From NCBI GenBank assembly GCA_028685755.1, contig JAQUDJ010000002.1:53677-100021 (forward strand): 46,345 bases of DNA. The letters run 5' to 3'. Source of the stretch: Eubacteriales bacterium (GTDB lineage: Bacteria; Bacillota; Clostridia; Saccharofermentanales; UBA5734). Made by a program: the position numbers and the translations under genes. Positions within the stretch are counted from its first letter, which is position 1. Each line of letters opens with the position of its first letter. Below are positions 31,062-39,144 of this stretch, one piece after another. The notes beneath the pieces are model-generated. The model searched no databases, was not told the origin of the DNA, and saw only the letters and a program-made list of their open reading frames with translations.

Positions 31062-32735
31062 ATGCGCAGTGACGCAATTAAAAAAGGTCCAAGTCGCGCT
31101 TCTCATCGTTCGCTCCTCTATGCACTCGGCCTGTCCGAAAGTGAAATGAAGAAGCCCTTTATCGGCGTGGTTAACTCGTTTAATGAAGTAGTTCCCGGCC
31201 ATGTTCACTTAAGAACGCTCTCGGATGCCGTCAAAGATGGTATCCGCAATGCCGGTGGCGTCCCCTTTGAATTTCCGGCAATCGCTGTCTGTGATGGCAT
31301 TGCGATGAACCATGGCGGGATGAAGTTTTCACTGATCAGCCGCGATATTATCGCGGATAGTGTCGAAATTATGATGACAGCGCATCAGTTCGATGCCGTC
31401 GTCTTTATCCCGAGCTGCGACAAAGTAGTCCCCGGGATGTTGATGGCAGCTGCTCGCCTCAATGTTCCGAGTATTTTTGTCTCAGGCGGACCCATGCTCC
31501 CAGGCATCGTCGGCCGCGATCGTGTTGGTCTTGGCAATGTTTTTGAAGCGGTCGGGGCCCATGCCGTTGGCAAAATTTCTGACGCGCAACTGACTGCCAT
31601 GGAAATGTCAGCTTGCCCAACATGCGGCAGTTGCTCCGGTATGTACACTGCCAATACCATGGCGTGCTTGACAGAAGCCATGGGTCTAGCACTCCCCGGC
31701 AGCGGAACCATCCCCGCGGTCTACTCAGATCGCAAACGCCTGGCTAAAATGACCGGCGAGCGCATTATGGATTTGCTCGAACAGAATATTTGCGCCCTCG
31801 ATATCATGACGCCAGCTGCCTTGCGCAACGCGTTACGCATGGATATGGCACTCGGTGGCTCGACTAATTCCGTCCTCCACATGCTTGCGATCGCACGCGA
31901 GGCAGGATACAATCTGACCCTTCAAGAAATCAACGAAATCAGCGCAGCCACACCACAAATTTGCAAACTCAACCCGGCAAGCGATCATTATATCTCTGAC
32001 CTCAATGAGATGGGCGGCCTGCGTTCAGTCATGTCTGAACTGGTGAAAGGCAACCATATTGAATTAGATGTCCTGACGGTTAGCGGACTCTTATCCGATC
32101 GCCTCAAAGGTTCAATGGCGGCTGATGGCGTGATCATTCGAACCCTCGATAATCCCTATTCCGTCGATGGCGGCTTAGCAGTTTTGACCGGCAACATCGC
32201 GACCAATGGTTGTGTTGTCAAAAAGGGCGCAGTCGTTCCAGAAATGATGCAACACGAGGGGCCTGCCCGCGTTTACGAATCAGAAGAAGAGTCAGTCGAT
32301 GCTATCTTTGGCGGACAGATCAATGCCGGTGATGTAGTCGTTGTCCGTTTTGAAGGCCCCAAAGGTGGCCCCGGCATGCGGGAAATGCTCACACCGACCA
32401 GCGCGCTTGCCGGCATGGGACTCGATCGCAGCGTCGCATTGATTACCGATGGTCGTTTCTCTGGCGCATCCCGTGGCGCCTCGATCGGCCATGTTAGCCC
32501 AGAAGCTGCAAGTGGCGGCTTGATCGCCTATGTTCAGGAAGGTGATCGGATCAAGATTGATATTCCGGCACGTACTATCGAATTACTCGTGTCCGAAGCT
32601 GAATTAGCCAAACGCCAGCCTGCCCAACAACCTGACCGAAATCTCCGCGGTGTCTTGAAACGTTATCAGACCCAAGTTGTCGATTCGAGCGAAGGCGCCC
32701 GCCTTCGTCGCTACGGAAAGGAAGATGAATCATGA
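31062..32735 (+). CDS. ilvD: Dihydroxy-acid dehydratase
   Basis: Dehydrates 2,3-dihydroxy-isovalerate and -methylvalerate in valine and isoleucine synthesis, using an Fe-S cluster. It has 557 residues. Cluster cysteines lie in [11 protein letters not shown] (Cys119) and [18 protein letters not shown] (Cys185 on). The position that carries an extra Cys in [2Fe-2S] enzymes reads VPGHVHL here, as in E. coli IlvD, which points to an oxygen-sensitive [4Fe-4S] type, fitting an anaerobe. It begins 17 bases after leuB and its stop overlaps the ilvB start (ATGA). Confidence 0.95.
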
Positions 32736-34453
32736 ATGGTGCAGAAGTAATCGTCAAATTTCTCCAAGACAAGGGCGTCAAACACGCTTTCGGTTATCCG
32801 GGCGGCCCTGTTCTCGTTCTTTATGATGCCATCTATAATGCTGGTTTTCCCCATGTGCAGGTGCGCCATGAACAAGGCGCCATACATGCCGCCGAAGGCT
32901 ATGCAAAAGTTACCGGCGTGCCCGGTGTTGTTATTGCAACCTCAGGGCCTGGCGCAACAAATCTCGTCACAGGGATTGCCGATGCGATGCTTGATTCGGT
33001 GCCAGTCCTCTGCGTAACTGGTGCAGTCGCGCGCAAAGCAACAGGCACGGACGCTTTTCAAGAAGCCGATATTACCGGCATTACTCAACCAATCACCAAA
33101 TACAATTATTTGGTCATGACCCCGGAAGACTTACTGCCCATTTTAGAAGAAGCGTGGGCCTTGACGACTGAAGGCCGTCCCGGTCCCGTGCTCGTCAATG
33201 TCCCTAAAGATCTGCTAGCCATTCAAATTGATACAACGGCTGAAGCACGGTCGATCAGCTCTTATACACGCCATCGTCCGGCTAAAGTCCAAACTGGCGC
33301 AATGACCGAGAAAGTCTATGCAGCGCTAGCCAAATCCAAAAAGCCACTGCTGCTCGCCGGTGGTGGTTGTGTCATTTCCAAAGGTGGCGTCGATGACATG
33401 ACCGAATTCATCCGCTGTCTCGGTATTCCCGTGGCAACGACTTTGATGGGAAAAGGTGCTGTCTCGGATGACCATTCCAAGTATTTGGGCCACATCGGTA
33501 TGCACGGCACACCTCAAGCGAATACCGCACTCGGAACCTGTGATCTCTTGCTTGCAGTAGGTTGCCGCTTTAGTGACCGAATCATCGGCGATCCGGACAA
33601 ATATAATCTCGACACAGACCGCGTTATCATTCACGTCGACATCGATTCCGCCGAAATCGGCAAAAATGTCCGTGCCGATATTGCAATCGAAGACGATGCT
33701 GCGGATTTCTTTCGCACGATGGCGGCCAATTACCCGACAGATCGCACGTGTGGCGTCTATTCAGAGGATTGGCTGGACTGGATTGACAGTCTCTTGGCGA
33801 AAAAGAAGCGCTATGATGAACTCGTCGAAGCCATGTACGTCCCGACATATCCACTCCTGCCGCAGTATTTGATTCACCGCGTCGCCCAAGCCAACAAAGG
33901 CAAAAACCCAATCGTCGTCACTGACGTCGGACAACATCAAATGTTTGCAACTCAACATTTCCCGGTCGAATCCCCACGGAGCTGGATCACCTCAGGGGGC
34001 CTCGGCACGATGGGCTTTGGCTTACCGGCCGCAATTGGCGCATCCTTCGCTGACCACTCCCGCCCGACGATTTTATTTGTCGGTGATGGTGGCTTCCAAA
34101 TGACCTTCCAAGAACTCGGCGTTCTGGCAAACCTCAAATTACCGGTCAAAGTTTTTATCATGGACAATGGCAGTCTCGGGATGGTTCGCCAGTGGCAAGA
34201 ACTCTTCTATGACCGGCGCTTTTCCCAATCCGGCATGGAAGGCACACCAGACTTCAACATGATCGCAAAAGCATACAATTTGCCATGTGGCTTTGCCAAC
34301 GATGAAGCAAGTCTAGCCCGCGAAATCGCCAAATCCGTTGAAACCGACGGCCCATACATCGTCCATTGCATCGTCGACACTGGCGCTAATGTTTATCCGA
34401 TGATCCCAGCCGGACGCATGCCGAATGAATTGATTATGCCGGGTATGGACTGA
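32732..34453 (+). CDS. ilvB: Acetolactate synthase large (catalytic) subunit
   Basis: Thiamine-diphosphate enzyme of 573 residues that makes acetolactate from pyruvate, or acetohydroxybutyrate from pyruvate and 2-oxobutyrate. The N-terminal domain has [15 protein letters not shown] and the catalytic Glu47 in [16 protein letters not shown]. The C-terminal domain has the metal/thiamine motif from [13 protein letters not shown] through to [12 protein letters not shown]. It overlaps ilvD by four bases. The regulatory subunit gene ilvN, normally next to it, is about 7.5 kb away on the other strand. A palindrome-rich island begins 31 bases after its stop. Confidence 0.95.
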
Positions 34454-34484: not shown

Positions 34485-34598
34485 ATTCCAGAGGGAGCAT
34501 AGTATCTGTTCGCTCGAACATCCTCGAAGAGCCGTAATCGCCTGCGATTACGGCTCTTCTGCGAACTCGCTCGGCAGATACTATGCTCCCTCTGGAAT
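34485..34598. repeat. Palindromic element, copy 1 (114 bp)
   Basis: Perfect 24-base inverted arms (34485-34508 and 34575-34598) with ATTCC at the tips and AGTATCTG at the inner edge enclose a 15-bp central hairpin (34527-34541 with 34544-34558). Two short palindromes flank that hairpin, at 34508-34519 (GTTCGCTCGAAC) and 34561-34570 (GCGAACTCGC). The whole can fold as a cloverleaf-like multi-arm structure. It begins 31 bases after ilvB, so it may also end that transcript. Copy 2 lies in inverted orientation at 34760-34874. Confidence 0.9.
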
Positions 34599-34694
34599 GA
34601 TATGAATCTAAGATTCAGCTATTTAGATTGTCAGGCTGATAATTATCAAAAAAGCATTAACTCGATCAGCAAACGCAAAATCACCGCCACCATC

Positions 34695-34742
34695 AGAGCG
34701 TCCCGCCCTCTTGCCGAGCGAACAAGAGGGATGGGATGCTCT
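34695..34742. repeat. Third palindrome between the two elements
   Basis: An imperfect stem of about 18 bp pairs AGAGCGTCCC... (34695-34713) with ...GGGATGCTCT (34723-34742) around a loop whose GAGCGAAC also occurs inside copy 2. The rest of the 161-bp spacer (34599-34759) has no credible gene. Confidence 0.75.
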
Positions 34743-34759
34743 TTCACATCTTTGTTTGT

Positions 34760-34874
34760 ATTCCAAATTGCTAAAAGTATCTGCAGAGCGAGTTCCGCAG
34801 AAGAACCGGAATCGCTTGCGATTTCAGTTCTTCGAGGATGTTTGAGCGAACAGATACTATAAGCAATTGGGAAT
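34760..34874. repeat. Palindromic element, copy 2, inverted (115 bp)
   Basis: Outer arms at 34760-34783 and 34851-34874 pair at 21 of 24 positions. They share only the ATTCC tip and AGTATCTG inner edge with copy 1; the 11 bases between differ from copy 1 yet still mostly pair. Read on the minus strand, the internal segment next to the first arm matches copy 1 at 17 of 18 bases, and the central hairpin (34801-34832) keeps 14 of 15 pairs, one by a G-C to A-T double change. Confidence 0.9.
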
Positions 34875-34956: not shown

Positions 34957-35268
34957 ATGGAAGCATACCACTTATGTCCTAAATTCGAACAAGCTTTTGC
35001 GCTCTTAGGCAAACGATGGACCGGCCTGATCATCCGGATTTTAATGGACGGCCCGAAACGATTTTCCGAAATCGCTGATGCTGCGACCAACTTATCCGAT
35101 CGTTTACTCACAGAACGGCTCAAAGACTTGGAAGAAAACGGAATTGTGGTTCGCCACGTTTATCCCGACAAGCCAGTCCGAATTGTCTACAGTTTGACCG
35201 AACGCGGTCAAGCACTCAAACCAGTAATGGATGAGATTCAAGTTTGGGCTGAGACACATCACGATTAA
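34957..35268 (+). CDS. HxlR family transcriptional regulator
   Basis: Winged-helix regulator of 103 residues. It has the family opening CPKFEQAFALLGKRWTGLII with a Cys at position 7, then FSEIADAATNLSDRLLTERLKDLEENGIV as the recognition region. In relatives such as HypR and HxlR the N-terminal Cys senses electrophiles or disulfide stress; that role here is inference. AGAGG precedes the ATG. A nitroreductase gene follows after 19 bases, the classic pairing for quinone or electrophile response. Confidence 0.93.
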   Translation: MEAYHLCPKFEQAFALLGKRWTGLIIRILMDGPKRFSEIADAATNLSDRLLTERLKDLEENGIVVRHVYPDKPVRIVYSLTERGQALKPVMDEIQVWAETHHD

Positions 35269-38064: not shown

Positions 38065-39030
38065 ATGAAACTCGGTGTATTTACGGTCATTCTCGGCGAT
38101 TTGCCGCTCGAACAGGCTCTCGCTTATCTCAAGTCCCAAGGTGTCCAAGAAGTTGAGATCGGTGTGGGTGGTAATCCCGGCACCGCACATGGTGATGCTA
38201 AGAAATTCTTAGCCGATCCGAAAGCACTCGCTGATTTTAAAGCAACGATCGATATGTCCGGCATCAAATTGGCTGCTTTGTCGACGCATGGCAATCCGGT
38301 CCACCCCAATCCTGAAATTGCTCGTCAAGACCACGAAGATTTTGAAGCAACTGTCCTAGTCGCTGAAAAGCTCGGCATCAAGACCGTTGTCACGTTCTCA
38401 GGCTGCCCAGGGGATTCAGATACCGCTACTTACCCGAACTGGGTTGTCGCGAGCTGGCCAACCGATCATCAGATCGTCAAGGAATGGCAGTGGAACGAAA
38501 AACTGATTCCATATTGGAAAAAAGCTGGTGCCTTTGCTGAAGCGCACGGTGTTCGCATTGCGATTGAAATGCACCCAGGCTTCAATGTCTATAATCCTTC
38601 GACCCTGCTACGGTTGCGTGAAGCTGTTGGTCCAGTAATTGGTGCCAATTTCGATCCGTCCCATCTCTTCTGGCAGGGGATCGATCCGGTTGCTGCTATC
38701 CGCGCCTTAAAAGGCGCAATCTACCATGTCCACGCTAAAGACACGAAAATCGATCCTTATAATAACGCGGTCAAGGGCGTCCTCGAAACCTCTTCGTTAG
38801 ATAGCCTCGGCGAGCGTTCTTGGATATTCCGCTCGGTCGGTTATGGTCACGGCGAAGCAGTCTGGCGCGCAATTTTCTCGGAACTACGTCTAGCTGGGTA
38901 CAACGGGATTATCTCGATTGAACACGAAGACGGTCTAATGACTCCGCGTGAAGGTCTGGAAAAAGCGATCCAAACCTTAAAAAATACGATCATTTTTGAA
39001 GACGATCAAGTCAATATGTTCTGGGCTTGA
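38065..39030 (+). CDS. Sugar phosphate isomerase/epimerase family protein (TIM barrel)
   Basis: AP-endonuclease-2-like TIM barrel of 321 residues. Candidate metal ligands are in IAIEMHPGFN, FDPSHLFWQG, YHVHAKDTK and ISIEHED, the four usual positions for a divalent metal that drives isomerisation, epimerisation or dehydration of keto-sugars. AAGGAA precedes the ATG, 29 bases after the dehydrogenase. The pair resembles catabolic modules for inositol, 3-keto-glycosides or uncommon sugars. No transporter or kinase is next to them, so the physiological substrate is open. Confidence 0.88.
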   Translation: MKLGVFTVILGDLPLEQALAYLKSQGVQEVEIGVGGNPGTAHGDAKKFLADPKALADFKATIDMSGIKLAALSTHGNPVHPNPEIARQDHEDFEATVLVAEKLGIKTVVTFSGCPGDSDTATYPNWVVASWPTDHQIVKEWQWNEKLIPYWKKAGAFAEAHGVRIAIEMHPGFNVYNPSTLLRLREAVGPVIGANFDPSHLFWQGIDPVAAIRALKGAIYHVHAKDTKIDPYNNAVKGVLETSSLDSLGERSWIFRSVGYGHGEAVWRAIFSELRLAGYNGIISIEHEDGLMTPREGLEKAIQTLKNTIIFEDDQVNMFWA

Positions 39031-39080
39031 ACATAGGTTTTTAATCAAACATGTACCGAAAATCAGACTAGCTTAGATCG

Positions 39081-39125
39081 AACAAGCTCAAATCAAACAA
39101 GCTCAAATCAAACAAGCTCAAATCA
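39081..39125. repeat. Three tandem copies of a 15-bp unit
   Basis: AACAAGCTCAAATCA is repeated three times without a break. Each copy contains the left arm (GCTCAA) of the terminator hairpin that follows, so three alternative stems are possible. Confidence 0.9.
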
Positions 39126-39144
39126 AAAAATTATTGAGCTTTTT
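39113..39144. terminator. Terminator after the isomerase gene
   Basis: GCTCAA in the last repeat unit pairs with TTGAGC (39134-39139), followed by seven T residues. It overlaps the last codons of the convergent DUF1836 gene. Confidence 0.7.

Follow-up and report, generated by a model that had tools for sequence, protein, structure and literature searches.

The window (the whole stretch of 46,345 nucleotides that was analysed) carries a cluster of palindromic elements between a gene for a thiamine-pyrophosphate enzyme of the acetolactate synthase type, which we take to be of the IlvB type, and a gene for an HxlR-family regulator (Table 1). As proposed earlier from the sequence of the window, two complete elements lie there in opposite orientation; their positions, their lengths (114 and 115 bp) and their pairing (24/24 for the outer arms of copy 1, 8/11 for the arm middle of copy 2) were all recovered. 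The 5' internal loop, TTCGCTC(G/A)AACATCCTC, is identical at 16 of 17 positions between the copies, or at 17 of 18 when the preceding G is counted, which reproduces the near-identity first noted for the internal single-stranded segments. The arms read ATTCC-AGAGGGAGCAT-AGTATCTG and ATTCC-CAATTGCTTAT-AGTATCTG, and the middle 11 bases pair at 11/11 and 8/11 positions within their own copies. The inner hairpin of copy 1 is fully paired (34526-34541 with 34544-34559, 16/16). Comparison of the two copies confirms the double change from G-C to A-T described for the central hairpin, together with one C-G to U.G change and one mismatch. RNA folding gave z scores of -13.3 for copy 1 and -6.9 for copy 2, with 0 of 200 dinucleotide shuffles folding as low. 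Selection on the fold is not provable from copies 1 and 2 alone.

A third, decayed copy, overlooked in the original prediction, lies between the two. It was located at 34702-34734 on the minus strand (E 0.0014) by running a covariance model, derived from 30 copies, exhaustively over the window. Copy 2 is antisense to both neighbouring genes, and the tails of the window copies are not convincingly T-rich. Elsewhere in the window, a near-perfect simple palindrome, AAATGGTGTTAGGCACGTGCCTGGCACCATTT, at 2781-2812 is probably a bidirectional terminator, and about three copies of a short tandem repeat, AACAAGCTCAAATCA, occupy positions ~39078-39127 in the gap after the open reading frame at 38065-39030.

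Table 1. Features of the palindrome cluster and its neighbouring genes (window coordinates)
Feature	Position	Strand	Basis or remark
Upstream gene, thiamine-pyrophosphate enzyme, acetolactate synthase type	32732..34453	+	copy 1 begins 32 nt past the stop
Copy 1, complete palindromic element (type A core), 114 bp	34485..34598	+	pairing, folding, copies in the same genome
Copy 1, 5' outer arm	34485..34508	+	24/24 paired with 34575-34598
Copy 1, conserved 5' internal loop TTCGCTCGAACATCCTC	34509..34525	+	alignments of copies
Copy 1, variable inner hairpin, 16 bp stem, 2-nt loop	34526..34559	+	pairing
Copy 1, conserved 3' internal loop TGCGAACTCGCTCGG	34560..34574	+	alignments of copies
Copy 1, 3' outer arm	34575..34598	+	pairing
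Spacer, alignable in part with A-B spacers at C5 and C32 of the same genome	34599..34693	+	alignment
Decayed type B copy, arms AGAGCGTCCCGCCCTCTTG / CAAGAGGGATGGGATGCTCT around CCGAGCGAAC, inner hairpin lost	34694..34743	-	
Copy 2, complete element, inverted orientation, 115 bp	34760..34874	-	pairing, folding, covariance model
Copy 2, 3' outer arm	34760..34783	-	pairing
Copy 2, conserved 3' internal loop TGCGGAACTCGCTCTG	34784..34799	-	alignment
Copy 2, inner hairpin	34800..34833	-	folding
Copy 2, conserved 5' internal loop TTCGCTCAAACATCCTC	34834..34850	-	alignment
Copy 2, 5' outer arm	34851..34874	-	pairing
Downstream gene, HxlR-family regulator	34957..35268	+	after the cluster

Anatomy and distribution of the element family

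The window's own genome has 11 good copies, and others were found in several phyla. Within the genome, type A copies have the outer stem CCCATCCG/CGGATGGG, or arms as in the window, and type B copies an outer stem beginning CTCCAGAGCACC with the inner hairpin GCCAGC..GCTGGC; the copy at C54 sits within a terminator stem, AAGGGGCCGATCTG..CAGATAGGCCCCTTATTTTTTT, followed by a T-rich tail. At three other places in this genome, A and B copies form an inverted pair around an alignable spacer, and the window cluster is a decayed instance of this A-spacer-B composite unit. Left half-units, made of the left arm and 5' loop only, form tandem arrays of 47- and 43-bp units (locus L020, 1325-1467, 1788-2034 and 2777-2920), and in a congeneric species full copies follow one another in tandem every 117-119 bp (L171, at 1267, 1384 and 1501, and L181).

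Across copies, the element measures ~60-115 bp and has two self-complementary stems that vary freely; between them lie the constant internal loops, TTCGCTCRRACAGTCCTC on the 5' side and TGCGGAACTCGCTCGG on the 3' side. An outer stem of ~8-25 bp encloses, in order, a 5' loop TTCGCTCRRACAG with TCCTC, the variable inner hairpin and a 3' loop TGCGGAACT with CGCTCGG. Variants show which parts are essential: a related family lacks the TTCGCTC / CGCTCGG block, and the TCCTC/TGCGGA part is missing from one Omnitrophota lineage, from the C54 copy and from L319/L320. Reduced to its minimum, the core of relatives reads RRACAG..AACTCG and usually encloses TCCTC/TGCGGA. Copies of the related family f2 that contain TCGTCGC..GCTCC (L365-L368 and others) have a second tandem pyrimidine mismatch in the inner stem (GTCGC/GCTCC), like the CGCTCG block of the outer loop.

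The loops are nearly identical across phyla, though the stems are unrelated, and paired positions covary in outer stems, in inner hairpins and at orthologous sites. Outer-stem covariation was 0.665, against 0.200 +/- 0.019 for shuffled and at most 0.197 for slid arms, the first value being inflated by preselection of copies with pairing arms. For 107 inner hairpins taken without preselection, pairing was 0.85 against 0.546 after shuffling, with a maximum of 0.623 in 2000 shuffles. The pattern first described in the window, conserved unpaired bases with covarying stems, holds for the family, in which the loops are constant and both stems vary yet pair.

A GTDB search with the two loops as the pattern gave, among the matches listed, Adlercreutzia/Enterorhabdus/Parvibacter, three Omnitrophota MAGs, Actinomycetota including Acidimicrobiia, and one MAG labelled Lachnospiraceae. 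By covariance model, copies numbered at least 33-41 in each of three genomes of Adlercreutzia, a member of the Eggerthellaceae, at least 19 in Parvibacter, at least 49 in one Omnitrophota MAG and at least 1-12 elsewhere. Pattern matches in Streptomyces, Bradyrhizobium, Pontibacter and others were dismissed as chance because their arms are unpaired. A shorter core, TCCTCG-hairpin-CTGCGGAACT, was present in 73 of the 188 genomes of the window's own order, where the reversed control pattern gave 7 matches in all. None of 238 genomes of the phylum from outside the order had a true copy, five of them showing a match without the hairpin; the distribution is therefore patchy. In IMG/VR, the full pattern had 2 matches, neither with strong arms, and the short pattern had 23, in which inspection revealed no clear nested palindrome. 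Plasmids gave no match and phages one partial, weak match; a phage or plasmid origin was rejected on account of this lack of appreciable carriage by either.

No Rfam model matched the window at its gathering score, E-value mode gave nothing relevant, and on the relatives' loci only the neighbouring tRNA and FMN riboswitch were matched. A literature search with sequence strings returned no relevant paper. The earlier impression that no named family matches is upheld for Rfam. The original prediction is partly supported: its own refuting outcomes did not occur, since many copies exist in this genome and elsewhere and no Rfam family covers them. Palindromic candidate structured RNAs, most of them predicted terminators, have been reported from human microbiomes (PMC8040213); they are likewise palindromic intergenic structures, a likeness drawn by description only. 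As far as could be searched, and with these candidates compared in that way, the element family is undescribed so far.

Evolution of the stems

G.U pairs made up 1 of 665 pairs in Eggerthellaceae inner stems, 0 of 126 in f2 inner stems and 11 of 464 in f2 outer stems, against 5-8% in plain T-tailed hairpins of the same loci. On the sense strand, G.U was not favoured over A.C (11 v 10 in f2; 16 v 94 in Eggerthellaceae, where the A.C excess comes partly from one conserved position). Stem extraction scored G.U and A.C equally and favoured Watson-Crick pairs, in the element and plain-hairpin sets alike. Eggerthellaceae copies such as L061, L141 and L062 have a conserved A.C mismatch in an outer stem with otherwise perfect arms; it reads ggTAccctga / tcaggGCAcc on the sense strand and is G.U on the other strand.

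Among 21 orthologous pairs, the loops were 96-98% identical and the arms 71%, non-orthologous arms being 66% identical. Arm changes in the orthologous pairs were two-sided in 70 cases and one-sided in 3, which is the trace expected of self-templated arm correction or of exchange between copies. One genome, G098, contains two dispersed subfamilies with shared arms in different surroundings, and copies there follow tRNA-Leu, tRNA-Val and tRNA-Gly. The base pairs at the outer end of the stem differ from copy to copy but remain paired, and arms of two types are combined in one copy. Because G.U is nearly absent, two-sided changes prevail at 70:3 and shared-arm subfamilies are dispersed in G098, the data point to a DNA-level palindrome rather than to ordinary RNA-stem evolution. 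The original prediction had offered a structured RNA or a hairpin-dependent mobile element; the mobile element fits these three observations better than a classical structured RNA does. Counting against it, many f2 copies within a given genome differ in both arms and inner stem. The set also informs the evolution of palindrome arms: changes come in pairs and skip G.U intermediates, a pattern that covariation tests can misread as RNA selection.

The 70:3 ratio and the scarcity of G.U would also match self-templated correction in neutral relics, that is, old palindromes whose symmetry stems only from template switching during replication and whose loops are alike by recent common descent. We consider this very unlikely: the loops are nearly identical across phyla though the stems are unrelated, and they are kept at orthologous sites whose arms are ~29% different. 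The loops are therefore constrained.

Placement, and possible mobility and origin

Copies are dispersed in genomes and mostly intergenic, occurring singly, as inverted pairs or in tandem repeats. In f2, tRNA genes (Leu, Ala, Arg, Val, Thr) precede 16 of 33 copies at a distance of 28-38 nt, all 16 copies having the same, sense, orientation, and most of the remaining f2 copies that were read follow closely behind a stop codon (~30 nt or less). Tails were T-rich in 82% of f2 copies against a background of 28%. At one tRNA-Leu, a plain terminator-like hairpin stands 3' of the gene in some relatives and the loop-bearing hairpin in others. T-rich tails were not convincing in Eggerthellaceae and were not clear elsewhere outside f2; orientation to genes in Eggerthellaceae was mixed, as judged by rough gene calls from a simple codon model that was unreliable in at least one case, and the copy between plsY and gpsA is antisense. 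Copies just after genes, and in relatives often directly after tRNA genes, look like transcription stop signals, and their placement argues for a role in RNA at the ends of transcripts.

Such a role could be filled at the RNA level, by terminators or 3'-end hairpins of a class whose constant loops would bind a protein controlling termination, processing or stability of the RNA upstream; copies would arise in DNA and be kept by RNA selection, and the stems would vary because only the fold matters. This possibility, which we think less likely than not, draws on the sense orientation and fixed spacing behind tRNA genes, the proximity to stop codons, the T-rich tails of f2, the plain hairpins at the same tRNA-Leu and the retention of near-identical loops at orthologous sites. 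It accords poorly with G.U frequencies that do not exceed A.C on the sense strand and fall far below those of ordinary terminators, with the mixed Eggerthellaceae orientation and the antisense plsY-gpsA copy, with the lack of a clear T tract outside f2 and with window copy 2, which is antisense to both neighbours. The DNA and RNA readings are compatible if a DNA element is tolerated, or useful, as a terminator.

Intrinsic (Rho-independent) terminators resemble the element in their location 3' of tRNAs and genes, their long GC-rich stem and, for f2 and the C54 copy, the T-rich tail, and the exchange with a plain terminator-like hairpin at one tRNA-Leu adds to the likeness. In contrast to them, the element has constant internal loops, a second inner hairpin and almost no G.U, is dispersed within the genome and lacks a T tail in most other hosts.

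We found no Y1 transposase in the window's genome, in genomes G198, G199, G201 and G206-G209, or in 7 of 8 f2 genomes, and no copy within ~1.5 kb of any of 27 Y1 genes tested. The TnpA_REP-like (RAYT) transposase suggested as a possible partner was thus lacking from the own genome and from most hosts. In Eggerthellaceae, 21 of 60 copies had GTAG at their antisense foot, against an expected 1.3; neither GTAG nor CGTC tags were found at the foot of copies in the window's genome, and in f2 they were at about chance level. Classical REP elements mobilised by RAYT would account for palindromes that lie between genes, form inverted pairs and reach a high copy number, as in REP/BIME, and for the Eggerthellaceae GTAG foot. 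With Y1 genes and tags distributed as described, this reading is largely refuted and we regard it as highly improbable.

REP and BIME elements carry GTAG and CGTC tags (PMC3733652). Like them, the elements are short palindromes found between genes in numerous copies, for the most part on the 3' side of a gene and often in inverted pairs, and they are plausibly transcribed and form genome-specific subfamilies. They differ in being longer (60-115 bp), with two stems round constant loops instead of a single 20-40 bp hairpin, in having no universal GTAG/CGTC tag, so that they are not tagged REPs by the PMC3733652 definition, in hosts that mostly lack a Y1 transposase and in sharing the same loops between distant phyla. 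Bacterial MITEs with strong folds, namely ERIC, NEMIS, RUP and Bcr1 (PMC3733652), are similarly non-coding, transcribable, palindromic and dispersed between genes, at 70-300 bp; unlike theirs, the stems here are copy-specific rather than constant, the range spans phyla, and no terminal inverted repeats of known IS were seen, a comparison made without an IS library.

Variable stems, conserved unpaired bases and strand asymmetry are also features of attC sites, and a folded single-stranded recombination or integration site for a site-specific recombinase might further explain the placement at tRNA 3' ends and the tandem copies spaced at 117-119 bp in a sister species. No cassette genes were seen between copies, however, the attC R/L box consensus is not obvious, and no Rfam match was obtained; we give this attC-like origin scarcely any credence.

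On balance, and with about even confidence, we read the elements as a candidate dispersed REP/MITE-like family of non-autonomous palindromic DNA elements that often provide a transcript 3'-end hairpin. One strand would fold into the hairpin through which they spread at the DNA level, and a putative enzyme or host factor would recognise the constant loops. Copying of one arm from the other, or exchange between copies, may keep the arms perfect. Insertion or retention would be favoured just 3' of genes, above all of tRNA genes in f2, and there the hairpin could act as a transcription terminator or as a 3'-end stabiliser of the upstream RNA. No mobilising enzyme was found, and no coding partner stood beside the copies read. 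The comparison of filled and empty sites gave no clean case with target duplication; at plsY-gpsA, the species without the element differs across the whole intergenic stretch. Stable presence at orthologous sites also fits a selected function.

A more specific proposal, which we think rather unlikely, casts the element as a portable terminator of transcription, a DNA hairpin, either selfish or domesticated, that a putative enzyme recognising hairpins and reading their constant loops would have carried from phylum to phylum. Such a terminator would settle at tRNA and gene 3' ends because the native terminator could be replaced there without harm.

Small bacterial repeats usually consist of one hairpin sequence and are confined to related hosts. 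Here, at least four distant lineages share constant loops combined with free stems, and in one family the elements are placed at the 3' ends of tRNA genes. Should the loops serve as a recognition site, an undescribed protein would await discovery; if the hairpins terminate transcription, they would show that terminators can be swapped as mobile modules.

For the window, the favoured reading as a dispersed DNA element would make copy 1 the 3' hairpin of the ilv transcript, and copy 2 and the decayed copy the remaining members of a composite inverted cluster. Sister species have no element at the window's site, where the gene order also differs, the site being rearranged. As a separate observation, another dispersed palindrome, whose stem covaries (AAAAAGGGACGGCGTCCCAATATCGAAAACCGATATTGGGACGCCGTCCCTTTTT and one variant) and which does not have the constant loops, lies 3' of the ilvB-like gene in sister species (L251 and L253).
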